This document shows, piece by piece, positions 24,757-60,543 of a DNA stretch of 64,000 nucleotides. The notes beneath the pieces are model-generated. The model worked only from the letters and a program-made list of their open reading frames with translations. It had not been told where the DNA came from and did not search any database. Source of the stretch: Haloarchaeobius sp. HME9146 (lineage in GTDB: Archaea > Halobacteriota > Halobacteria > Halobacteriales > Natrialbaceae); assembly GCF_025399835.1 (NCBI RefSeq), contig NZ_JAODVR010000001.1, positions 682,001 to 746,000 on the forward strand, in the 5' to 3' direction. A program made the translations under genes and the position numbers. How positions within the stretch are numbered: position 1 is the first letter of the stretch; every line of letters begins with the position of its first letter.

Positions 24757-24782
24757 CTCCGGTTCCCACGAGAGCGAAACGG

Positions 24783-24788
24783 CTAAAC
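24783..24788 (+). promoter_or_regulatory. TATA-like box of the trpS1 leader
   Basis: CTAAAC, inside GGCTAAACGA and preceded by a BRE-like GCGAAAC, is centred 27 nt before the ATG at 24812. The same form (TTAAACG at -27) precedes dim2. It predicts that transcription begins at the first base of the short leader reading frame and 156 nt before trpS1. Confidence 0.5.
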
Positions 24789-24811
24789 GACAGAAGCTGA
24801 TACGTTCTCCC

Positions 24812-24889
24812 ATGCAGTCCGCTCCCTGCTGGCGGTGGCACACGTTCTCGGGAGCGGACAGTATCGCGTGCGGCGTCGGCGTGGCGTAA
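24812..24889 (+). CDS. Candidate Trp-containing leader peptide
   Basis: A 25-codon reading frame with ATG at the predicted transcription start and TAA at 24887-24889. It reads MQSAPCWRWHTFSG and continues to VGVA. Trp codons are at 24830-24832 and 24836-24838, so 2 of 25 residues are Trp, a rare amino acid. The Trp codons lie in the loop of a perfect 10-bp hairpin and inside a 7-nt block complementary to the region just before trpS1. Position, length and Trp codons match leader peptides of ribosome-mediated attenuators. Conservation in relatives is untested, so this remains a candidate. Confidence 0.45.
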   Translation: MQSAPCWRWHTFSGADSIACGVGVA

Positions 24890-24951
24890 CCGGGCTGGCG
24901 GCGACGCGGTGCTCCCTTCGTTCTCTCTACGCACTGCCCGCAAGCCGCCAG
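24817..24951 (+). promoter_or_regulatory. Candidate tryptophan attenuator/switch RNA before trpS1
   Basis: Pairing blocks: arm 1 GTCCGCTCCC (24817-24826) pairs perfectly with arm 2 GGGAGCGGAC (24850-24859). Arm 2's GGGAGC can instead pair with GCTCCC (24911-24916). CTGGCGG at 24829-24835 (over the first Trp codon) and again in CTGGCGGC at 24895-24902 both complement GCCGCCAG (24944-24951), which ends 16 nt before the trpS1 ATG. GCGTCG (24873-24878) pairs with CGACGC (24902-24907). These are mutually exclusive folds that a ribosome stalled on Trp codons would change. No strong oligo-T terminator is seen; 24914-24929 is only pyrimidine-rich, so control may be at translation. Confidence 0.45.
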
Positions 24952-24967
24952 TCTCACGCATATCACG

Positions 24968-26173
24968 ATGACACACCACGACGACACGACAGACGCACCG
25001 CACGCCACGAACGACAGCCAGCACGACGACTTCACCGTCACACCCTACGAGGTCGCCGGGACGGTCGATTACGAGAGACTGCTCGAGCAGTTCGGTGCGG
25101 ACCGCCTCACCCCCGAGCAGGTCGCGCGGTTCCCCGACCACCCGATGCTCCGGCGGGGCATCTACTACGCCGGCCGGGATGTCGACCCGTACCTCGACGC
25201 CGCCGAGAACGACGAGCCCCACAGCATCGTCACCGGTATCGGGCCGTCGGGGCCGATGCACATCGGGCACGTCCTCGTGTTCTACCTCGCGAAGCGACTC
25301 CAGGAAGTCACGGGCGCACACGTCTACATCCCGCTGTCGGACGACGAGAAGTACTACTCGAAGGACCTCACGTATCCCGAAATCGGCGAGTACACGCGAC
25401 AGAACCTGCGGGACCTCCTCGCGGTCGGGTTCGACCCCGACCTGACGACCATCGTCGTCGACACGGCCGACGCCGACGTGGTGTACCCCCTCGCGAGCGC
25501 GTTCGCGAAGCACCTTACACAGGCGACGGTCGACGCGACCTACGGCGACCCGGAGAACGTCGGCCTCTCGTTCTACCCGGCGGTCCAGACCGCCCATCTC
25601 CTGCTGCCCCAGCTCGTCCACGGCGCGCACCCGACGCTGGTGCCGGTCGCGGTCGACCAGGACCCGCACATCCGGGTGTGTCGGGACGTGGCCGCGAAAC
25701 AGCGCTTTCCAGTACAGAAACCGGGCGCGCTCCTGGGTAAATTCCTGCCGGACCTCTCGGGGCCGGGCAAGATGTCGAGCAGCGCCGACGTGCCGAGCAT
25801 CACCCTCGACGACGACCCCGAGACGGTCCGCGATACCGTGTTGACCCACGCCTTCTCGGGTGGCCAGACGAGCCTCGAAGCGCACCGTGAACACGGTGGC
25901 GACCCGACGGTCGACGTGTCGTTCCAGTTGCTCCGGTTCTTCTTCGAGCCGGACGACGACGAGGTCGACCGACTCGCCCGCGAGTACCGGGCTGGCGAAC
26001 TCCTCAGCGGGGAGTTGAAAGAACGGGCCGCCGAGCGAATCAGCGAGTTCCTCGCCGAACACCAGGACCGGAAGGCTGCCCTGGGTTCCCTCGACGACGA
26101 ACTGCCGGCGTACCGGCTCGGAGCCGACGCGAGACGGACCGCCCTCGATGCCGTCGGCATCGGGGGACTCTGA
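24968..26173 (+). CDS. trpS: Tryptophan--tRNA ligase, eukaryote-like (TrpRS 1)
   Basis: Class I TrpRS of 401 residues, charging tRNA-Trp with ATP. The HIGH motif is GPSGPMHIGHVLVFYL and the KMSKS motif is GPGKMSSSADVPS. Blocks such as PLSDDEKYYSKDLTYPE, VDQDPHIRVCRDVA and HAFSGGQTSLEAHREHGGDPTVDVSFQLL follow the eukaryotic/archaeal TrpRS closely. It differs strongly from the other TrpRS in the window (58966-60543), so this is a second, auxiliary enzyme. The His/Asp-rich N terminus (MTHHDDTTDAPH) is extra. It starts 78 nt after the candidate leader peptide. An auxiliary TrpRS often serves stress or resistance to tRNA-synthetase inhibitors; that role is inferred. Confidence 0.9.
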   Translation: MTHHDDTTDAPHATNDSQHDDFTVTPYEVAGTVDYERLLEQFGADRLTPEQVARFPDHPMLRRGIYYAGRDVDPYLDAAENDEPHSIVTGIGPSGPMHIGHVLVFYLAKRLQEVTGAHVYIPLSDDEKYYSKDLTYPEIGEYTRQNLRDLLAVGFDPDLTTIVVDTADADVVYPLASAFAKHLTQATVDATYGDPENVGLSFYPAVQTAHLLLPQLVHGAHPTLVPVAVDQDPHIRVCRDVAAKQRFPVQKPGALLGKFLPDLSGPGKMSSSADVPSITLDDDPETVRDTVLTHAFSGGQTSLEAHREHGGDPTVDVSFQLLRFFFEPDDDEVDRLAREYRAGELLSGELKERAAERISEFLAEHQDRKAALGSLDDELPAYRLGADARRTALDAVGIGGL

Positions 26174-58965: not shown

Positions 58966-60543
58966 ATGACGCGCGATTCCGAGTCGTCGACACCCGACGA
59001 CGAGCTGGTTCCGGACGGTGGCGAGACGGCAGCCGAGGGAGCCGACGAGGTCGCACTCGACCCGTGGGGCTCCTCGACCGTCTCCGACTACCGCAAGCTG
59101 TTCGACGAGTTCGGTATCGAGGAGTTCGACGAGGTCCTCCCCGAAGTACCGAACCCCCACTACCTGATGCGCCGCGGGGTCATCTTCGGCCACCGCGACT
59201 ACCGCCCCGTGGCGGAGGCGATGCGCGAGGGCGAGCCGTGGGCCGTCTTGTCGGGATTCATGCCGACGGGGGACCCGCACATCGGGCACAAGCTGGTGTT
59301 CGACGAGATAATCTGGCACCAGCAGCAGGGCGGCGAGGCGTACGGCCTCATCGCTGACCTGGAGGCCCACAGCGCCCGCGGGCTGACGTGGGACGAGATC
59401 GACGAGCACTCGCGTGACTACATCCTGAGCCTGCTCGCGCTCGGGTTCGACCCCGAGGAGGGCGAACTCTACCGGCAGTCCGATAACCGGGAGCTGCAGG
59501 ACCTCGCGTTCGAGCTGGGCATCGAGGCGAACTACTCCGAGCTGCAGGCTATCTACGGCTTCGACGGCGAGACCGACGTGAGCCACATGCAGAGCGTCGT
59601 CACGCAGATGGCGGACATCCTCTACCCGCAACTCGACGAGCCCAAGCCCACCGTGATTCCGGTCGGGCCGGACCAGGACCCGCACATGCGCCTGGCGCGC
59701 GACCTCGCGACCCGGATGCGCTTCTTCAAGGTCTCGAAGGCGTACGCGAGCTTCGAGGCGGACGACGACGAGCGCGAACTCATCGCGGCGGCCTACGCGG
59801 CCCTCGCCGACGAGGCACCCGAGGGGGAGCCGGTCCGGTGTGAGGACGGTGCGGCGTGGCTGCGCGAGCACACGCCCGAGCCGGCGGACGCCCGCGATGC
59901 GGCGGTCAAGAAGCTCGATTCGGCCGGGAAGGAGCCGCTTCGCCCGCGGACTCGCTTCTTCGACCGGCAGGCGACCGACGAGGCGTTCGAGGCGCTCATC
60001 GACGCGGTCGAGGGCGAGAAGCGCGTCTACGAGGGGCACATCGACGCGTTCGACCTCGAACGCGGTGAGGCCGAGGAGCTGGCGAGACAGGTCGAGGTCG
60101 ACCACGGCGGCTACGGCTTCATGGCTCCGTCCTCGATCTACCACCGGTTCATGACCGGGCTCACCGGCGGGAAGATGTCCTCGTCGGTCCCGGCGAGCCA
60201 CATCTCGCTGCTCGACGACCCCGAGGACGGCTACGACAAGGTGAAATCGGCGACGACTGGCGGGCGCGAGACGGCCGAAGAACAGCGCGAGAAGGGCGGC
60301 GAGGCCGACAAGTGCCCGGTGTACGAACTGTACGCCTACCTGCTCGCGGGCGACGACGACGAGTTCGCGACCGAGGTGTACGAGGAGTGCGTCGGCGGCG
60401 AGCGCCTCTGTGGTGGCTGCAAGGAACAGGCGGCCGAACTCATGGAGGAGTTCCTCGAGGAGCACCAGGAGAAGCGCGAAGAGGTCGCCGAGCACCTGGA
60501 CGACCTCGACATCGACCTGGACTCGGACCGCAAGCACGCCTGA
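58966..60543 (+). CDS. trpS: Tryptophan--tRNA ligase, haloarchaeal type (TrpRS 2)
   Basis: A 525-residue TrpRS, probably the housekeeping copy because it neighbours endA. HIGH motif: SGFMPTGDPHIGHKLVFDEI; KMSKS motif: TGGKMSSSVPASH. VGPDQDPHMRLARDLATRM is the class Ic core. Compared with TrpRS 1 it has a long acidic N terminus (about 1-45), an insertion of about 80 residues (about 265-345), and a C-terminal Cys cluster (CVGGERLCGGCKEQA). The two TrpRS share the fold but little else. Start ATG 58966. Confidence 0.92.
   Translation: MTRDSESSTPDDELVPDGGETAAEGADEVALDPWGSSTVSDYRKLFDEFGIEEFDEVLPEVPNPHYLMRRGVIFGHRDYRPVAEAMREGEPWAVLSGFMPTGDPHIGHKLVFDEIIWHQQQGGEAYGLIADLEAHSARGLTWDEIDEHSRDYILSLLALGFDPEEGELYRQSDNRELQDLAFELGIEANYSELQAIYGFDGETDVSHMQSVVTQMADILYPQLDEPKPTVIPVGPDQDPHMRLARDLATRMRFFKVSKAYASFEADDDERELIAAAYAALADEAPEGEPVRCEDGAAWLREHTPEPADARDAAVKKLDSAGKEPLRPRTRFFDRQATDEAFEALIDAVEGEKRVYEGHIDAFDLERGEAEELARQVEVDHGGYGFMAPSSIYHRFMTGLTGGKMSSSVPASHISLLDDPEDGYDKVKSATTGGRETAEEQREKGGEADKCPVYELYAYLLAGDDDEFATEVYEECVGGERLCGGCKEQAAELMEEFLEEHQEKREEVAEHLDDLDIDLDSDRKHA

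Follow-up and report, generated by a model that had tools for sequence, protein, structure and literature searches.

Ribosome-mediated attenuation of transcription in bacterial trp operons, of the Escherichia coli trpL type, is a textbook bacterial mechanism, and in Streptomyces coelicolor an auxiliary tryptophanyl-tRNA synthetase (TrpRS) gene is controlled by a leader with Trp codons. We found no report of ribosome-mediated attenuation in archaea in the open-access literature, a search that left most subscription papers outside. Here, we analyzed a 64,000-nucleotide stretch of the genome of Haloarchaeobius sp. HME9146 (contig NZ_JAODVR010000001.1, positions 682,001 to 746,000; hereafter the window), in which the region upstream of an auxiliary TrpRS gene suggests a switch operated by ribosome stalling, a mechanism otherwise known, as far as we found in open-access literature, only from bacteria. 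Like E. coli trpL, the haloarchaeal leader combines a short open reading frame (ORF), tandem regulatory codons by the first hairpin arm, mutually exclusive folds, and codons matched to the pathway. It differs in that its ORF appears to be leaderless under a BRE/TATA promoter, in that it has no classic terminator hairpin with oligo-U, and in that the freed arm would instead pair with and mask a pyrimidine tract, extending a second conserved hairpin. In S. coelicolor, too, the gene for an auxiliary TrpRS follows a leader peptide rich in Trp, but that system belongs to another domain of life and has another RNA architecture, and the haloarchaeal leader is also used by housekeeping TrpRS, trpD-trpF, auxiliary seryl-tRNA synthetase (SerRS), and other genes. 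With T-box riboswitches the leader shares a stem-loop codon matched to the downstream synthetase gene; it is set apart from them by its conserved ORF, its several regulatory codons, and the lack of an Rfam T-box match. A few haloarchaeal copies, some of them Trp-free, are found upstream of genes for an acetyltransferase, a methyltransferase, or an exporter and in this recall Erm-type drug-sensing leader peptides of bacteria, but their RNA scaffold is that of the synthetase leaders.

The proposed regulated gene, trpS1 (positions 24968 to 26173 of the window; all features described here are on the + strand), encodes an auxiliary TrpRS of 401 amino acids (NCBIfam NF008927, 543.7 bits, above the cut-off). 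A second TrpRS of the housekeeping type, with 525 amino acids, is encoded at 58966 to 60543 (NCBIfam NF008928, 1031 bits) and has no leader in this genome, which contains one strong leader match in total. Upstream of trpS1, a BRE (CGAAA, 24775 to 24779) and a TATA-like box (CTAAAC, 24783 to 24788, 27 nt upstream of the ATG at 24812) precede a leader ORF of 25 codons plus a TAA stop (MQSAPCWRWHTFSGADSIACGVGVA, 24812 to 24889), which was recognized from the sequence and from comparison with related leaders. Its codons 7 to 9 read Trp-Arg-Trp (24830 to 24838, with Trp at 24830 to 24832 and 24836 to 24838) and are identified by comparison as the regulatory codons. They are held in the loop of a perfect 10-bp hairpin, P1 (24817 to 24826 with 24850 to 24859). 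The original prediction had described the TATA-like box, the frame with Trp-Arg-Trp, and this hairpin, and all were found where it had placed them. P1 is followed by a second hairpin, P2/P3 (24860 to 24913), composed of P2 (24861 to 24868 with 24905 to 24912) and an apical P3 (24874 to 24884 with 24890 to 24900), whose loop contains the leader stop codon in the window. The apical motif of P3, GGGCNUNACCC (24883 to 24891 in the window, and the homologous loops elsewhere), is also conserved in leaders whose stop codon lies outside the loop. Downstream lies GCUC(C/A)CU with a pyrimidine-rich, U-enriched tract (24911 to 24926), which we consider a candidate termination signal.

We found the leader to be widespread in haloarchaea. 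Among 32 loci for close trpS1 homologues in 61 related genomes, 31 have it approximately 150 nt upstream. A covariance model built from 38 leaders (R1) had strong matches throughout the haloarchaeal order, with E values down to ∼1e-39, and two later models (R2, and R3 with the P1 loop masked) added more copies, for a total of >200 distinct copies across the order. The genomes with a match numbered 79 of 125, 76 of 146, 16 of 28, 14 of 26, and 11 of 18 in the family samples, typically with one strong match per genome. Several copies are plasmid-borne, and a close copy occurs on pHME505 of Haloferax mediterranei ATCC 33500, at the trpS locus E6P09_RS17035 (89.7 bits). When 295 genomes from across the phylum were sampled, no credible copy was detected outside the order, where the lone match scored 21 bits. 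At E values up to 1, Rfam matched neither the window region nor any of six diverse copies, so that the known Rfam amino-acid operon leaders likewise had no covariance-model match. Based on comparison, the recurrence of the hairpin, the start codon, and the in-frame Trp codons in >200 leaders is far beyond chance. One copy (L197) has decayed, with its 3′ half lost and its Trp codons out of frame.

The conservation pattern is that of a reading frame. In 52 divergent representatives (leaders with <80% identity), a start codon is present in all 52 at 3, 6, or 9 nt upstream of P1 (45 ATG and 7 GTG). Its frame includes 112 of the 115 TGG triplets in the loops, and the P1 loop length falls into a single class modulo 3 in 47 of 52; the rows are related by ancestry, so a binomial P value for these frame counts is not to be taken literally. 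Trp-Arg-Trp is encoded by 167 of 204 TrpRS-associated leaders, and at least one Trp by 200. Three of the four leaders that lacked Trp in automated parsing (L193, L211, and L220) show it when read by hand, the fourth being L252. We conclude from these alignments that selection has kept the leader ORF open and in frame. In two leaders (L013 and L060), the ORF stops just past one Trp codon (MTTALEWQ, then TGA), with P1 and the downstream TGG retained.

Across the same representatives, A/T content has maxima at −36 to −33 (BRE, A-rich) and −30 to −24 (TATA) relative to the leader start codon, whereas an upstream TATA peak was not found for the trpS1 ATG itself. Based on this spacing, which is that of leaderless genes in haloarchaea, the transcript probably begins at or next to the leader ATG. 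Leaderless transcripts make up 72% of the protein-coding transcripts of Haloferax volcanii (PMC4983044). Given the promoter spacing and the prevalence of leaderless transcripts in that species, we consider it very probable that translation of the leader ORF starts on a leaderless transcript.

Codon identity in the leaders varies with the downstream gene. We parsed 214 distinct leaders, of which 204 are followed by a TrpRS gene (166 of the trpS1 type and 38 of the housekeeping type). One further copy, with three Trp codons, is upstream of trpD-trpF (tryptophan biosynthesis). Two copies (L196 and L219) precede an auxiliary SerRS gene and have Ser codons at the usual place of Trp (MESTSRSRSQSSFWEVDS), and a third Ser-codon leader (L195), from the genome that also has L196, precedes a decayed copy of this gene. 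The auxiliary SerRS is 41 to 42% identical to the housekeeping SerRS, and among six searched genomes it was intact only in two, both of which have an intact Ser leader locus. The occurrence of the same architecture before trpD-trpF with Trp codons and before auxiliary SerRS with Ser codons is, as comparative evidence, decisive: the codons are matched to the gene that follows. This exchange of Trp for Ser codons makes the device look modular. Other copies precede genes that do not encode synthetases, including RimJ/RimL-like GNAT acetyltransferases (L189, L194, L214, and L225, leader at local position 301; these four have no Trp codons, and GNAT acetyltransferase leaders are mostly Trp-free in general), an MsbA-type ABC exporter (L181 and L229, with a conserved GPVLWHG peptide), and a SAM-dependent methyltransferase (L186 and L190, with the leader MVSVSYLMRWLTFWEADS). 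For this group of few copies, a plausible guess is that the genes confer inducible resistance to inhibitors of synthetases or ribosomes. We also noted that a plasmid of Haladaptatus salinisoli (L275, 1486 to 3062) encodes a third, divergent type of TrpRS that overlaps a GNAT acetyltransferase gene and has no match to the leader model.

Evolutionary changes in the alignment support the two hairpins, and P2/P3 is also present in the predicted fold. Changes on both sides of a pair were observed for 6 of 9 P1 pairs and 5 of 8 P2 pairs (11 of 17 together), with 168 double-change cells for P1 and P2 where shuffles had 56. The covariation score was 0.37, compared to 0.03 to 0.11 for slid partners. 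In an alignment-free test, the pairing of each arm with its own partner was compared to that with partners swapped between species, resulting in z values of −11 for P1, −9.7 for P2, and −4.9 for P3; these values gauge pairing against swaps and are not phylogeny-corrected significance, as the sequences are related and not independent. An unbiased scan of 993 window pairs, in which three entries with huge values were set aside as energy-evaluation artifacts, identified a sole further pairing that stood out (difference of −1.18 kcal/mol). This pairing, helix A (24850 to 24925), joins the P1 3′ arm (24850 to 24858) to the pyrimidine tract (24917 to 24925) and was also favored in the own-versus-swapped test (z = −3.9; 0 of 5000 permutations). 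P1 and helix A share this arm and are mutually exclusive; helix A encloses P2 and would stack with P2/P3 into one long hairpin. The tract follows a nearly invariant GCTC[CA]CT and has almost no A and ∼50 to 80% T at positions g+10 to g+15. Two nearly invariant sets of unpaired or junction nucleotides, GGACAGU (24856 to 24862) and GCUCMCU (24911 to 24917), are opposed as an internal loop in the fold that combines helix A and P2.

The original prediction had assigned other partners to these strands. It paired the P1 3′ arm with GCTCCC at 24911 to 24916, for which complementarity is present in the window, but own pairs are worse than swapped ones (z = +3.5); the alternative partner in the switch we propose is instead the adjacent tract at 24917 to 24925. 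It also noted two copies of CTGGCGG (24829 to 24835 and 24895 to 24901) complementary to GCCGCCAG (24944 to 24951). Both copies and their complementarity exist, but the pairing is not conserved (z = −2.1, within scan noise), and the second copy does not correspond to any conserved feature of the alignment. A classic 3:4 hairpin, in which the P2 3′ strand would pair with GNAYCGC around the tract, was good in single sequences and weak overall (z = −1.8), and we rejected it.

We modeled the effect of a stalled ribosome on these folds. With a ribosome placed on the first Trp codon, 51 of the 52 representatives are predicted to switch to helix A, whose mean probability is 0.89 with the stalled ribosome compared to 0.07 when free, and the tract is unpaired with a probability of 0.20 in the stalled state compared to 0.73 with P1 held. 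P1 is predicted to form in the nascent RNA (mean probability, 0.93). At equilibrium and with no ribosome, the full 5′ untranslated region of the window prefers helix A (probability, ∼0.77), and therefore the switch would depend on the co-transcriptional formation of P1. Folding alone is weak evidence because shuffled tracts still reach a helix A probability of 0.69 under the stall model. Comparison and modeling together indicate that the leader has mutually exclusive folds, one of which would be blocked by a stalled ribosome.

The best explanation of these features, and in our assessment a probable one, is a ribosome-mediated attenuator that senses the charging of tRNA-Trp. The core of the original prediction (a translated leader ORF that senses Trp through exclusive folds before an auxiliary TrpRS gene in an archaeon) is strongly supported by the conserved start codon and frame, the gene-tracking codons, and the covariation. 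The leaderless transcript would begin at the leader ATG, and a ribosome would translate the 25-codon peptide with its Trp-Arg-Trp within the P1 loop. When Trp-tRNA is ample, the ribosome would pass, P1 would re-form, and the pyrimidine tract after P2 would be left single-stranded, probably leading to premature termination. Under a shortage of Trp-tRNA, the ribosome would stall on the Trp codons and cover the P1 5′ arm, and the freed 3′ arm would pair with the tract as helix A, prolonging P2/P3, masking the tract, and allowing expression of trpS1. The leader frame, the codons, P1, P2/P3, helix A, and mutual exclusion are supported by comparison, and the direction of the response (stalling turns expression on) is suggested by the target genes.

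With regard to output, we lean toward transcription. The U-enriched leader tract resembles the haloarchaeal terminator motif described in Haloferax, a T stretch ending in TC (PMC7237163), and U is found opposite a G of the arm at 36% in helix A compared to 5% in P1. This enrichment of U where C would pair better is what a termination signal needs, although it could equally reflect a requirement for a weaker helix. With the same sensor, the change from P1 to helix A could instead alter ribosome access to the trpS1 start or mRNA decay, which we consider a minority possibility. A strong oligo-T is absent from the tract in many species, including that of the window, whose tract (TTCGTTCTC) lacks four consecutive T residues. 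Efficient binding by the methanogen aCPSF1 requires two U4 tracts (PMC8716108), a requirement that makes the lack of a T4 run in the window count against a transcriptional output. In addition, the distance from GCTC to the trpS1 ATG is fairly constant (52 to 92 nt; median, 59), which could suit a translational output, and the action on translation suggested in the original prediction is possible, though less likely than attenuation of transcription. However, the 993-pair scan found no supported pairing near the trpS1 start.

Other readings concern the sensor itself. The target genes, which include spare TrpRS and SerRS, GNAT acetyltransferases, a SAM methyltransferase, and MsbA-type ABC exporters, together with the plasmid location of several copies, would suit a general sensor of ribosome stalling or inhibitors that responds mainly to drugs hitting synthetases or ribosomes, the regulated genes being resistance genes. 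We consider this rather unlikely; the non-synthetase cases are few, and housekeeping TrpRS and trpD-trpF also have the leader. Moreover, such a role would add to the sensing of Trp more than exclude it. A T-box-like riboswitch, in which a UGG specifier of the P1 loop would be recognized directly by uncharged tRNA-Trp with no need of translation, would also fit a stem-loop codon that changes with the synthetase. This is very improbable given the start codon at a fixed offset, the codons repeated in one frame, the loop length kept modulo 3, the leaderless promoter spacing, and a reading frame under selection; the window region and six loci also lacked any Rfam match, including to the T-box covariance model, at E values up to 1. 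Least probable of all is a conserved structured RNA or protein-binding site with an incidental small ORF. A bound factor would suit the strong conservation of GGACAGU and GCUCMCU, which are unpaired or lie at junctions, but the in-frame Trp bias and the gene-matched codon change would go unexplained.

Extending this reading beyond trpS1, we consider it an even proposition that haloarchaea own a class of leader-peptide attenuators built on one scaffold (the P1 sensor, P2/P3, and a masked pyrimidine termination tract) with exchangeable codons. Such a class would serve synthetases and tryptophan biosynthesis as well as resistance genes induced by stalling, and it would act by hiding an archaeal termination signal, with no terminator hairpin of the bacterial type. 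The close copy in H. mediterranei, a tractable species, makes the idea directly testable. If true, such a class would show that in archaea the expression of a downstream gene is coupled to leader-peptide translation, via leaderless initiation and possibly via an archaeal termination signal.
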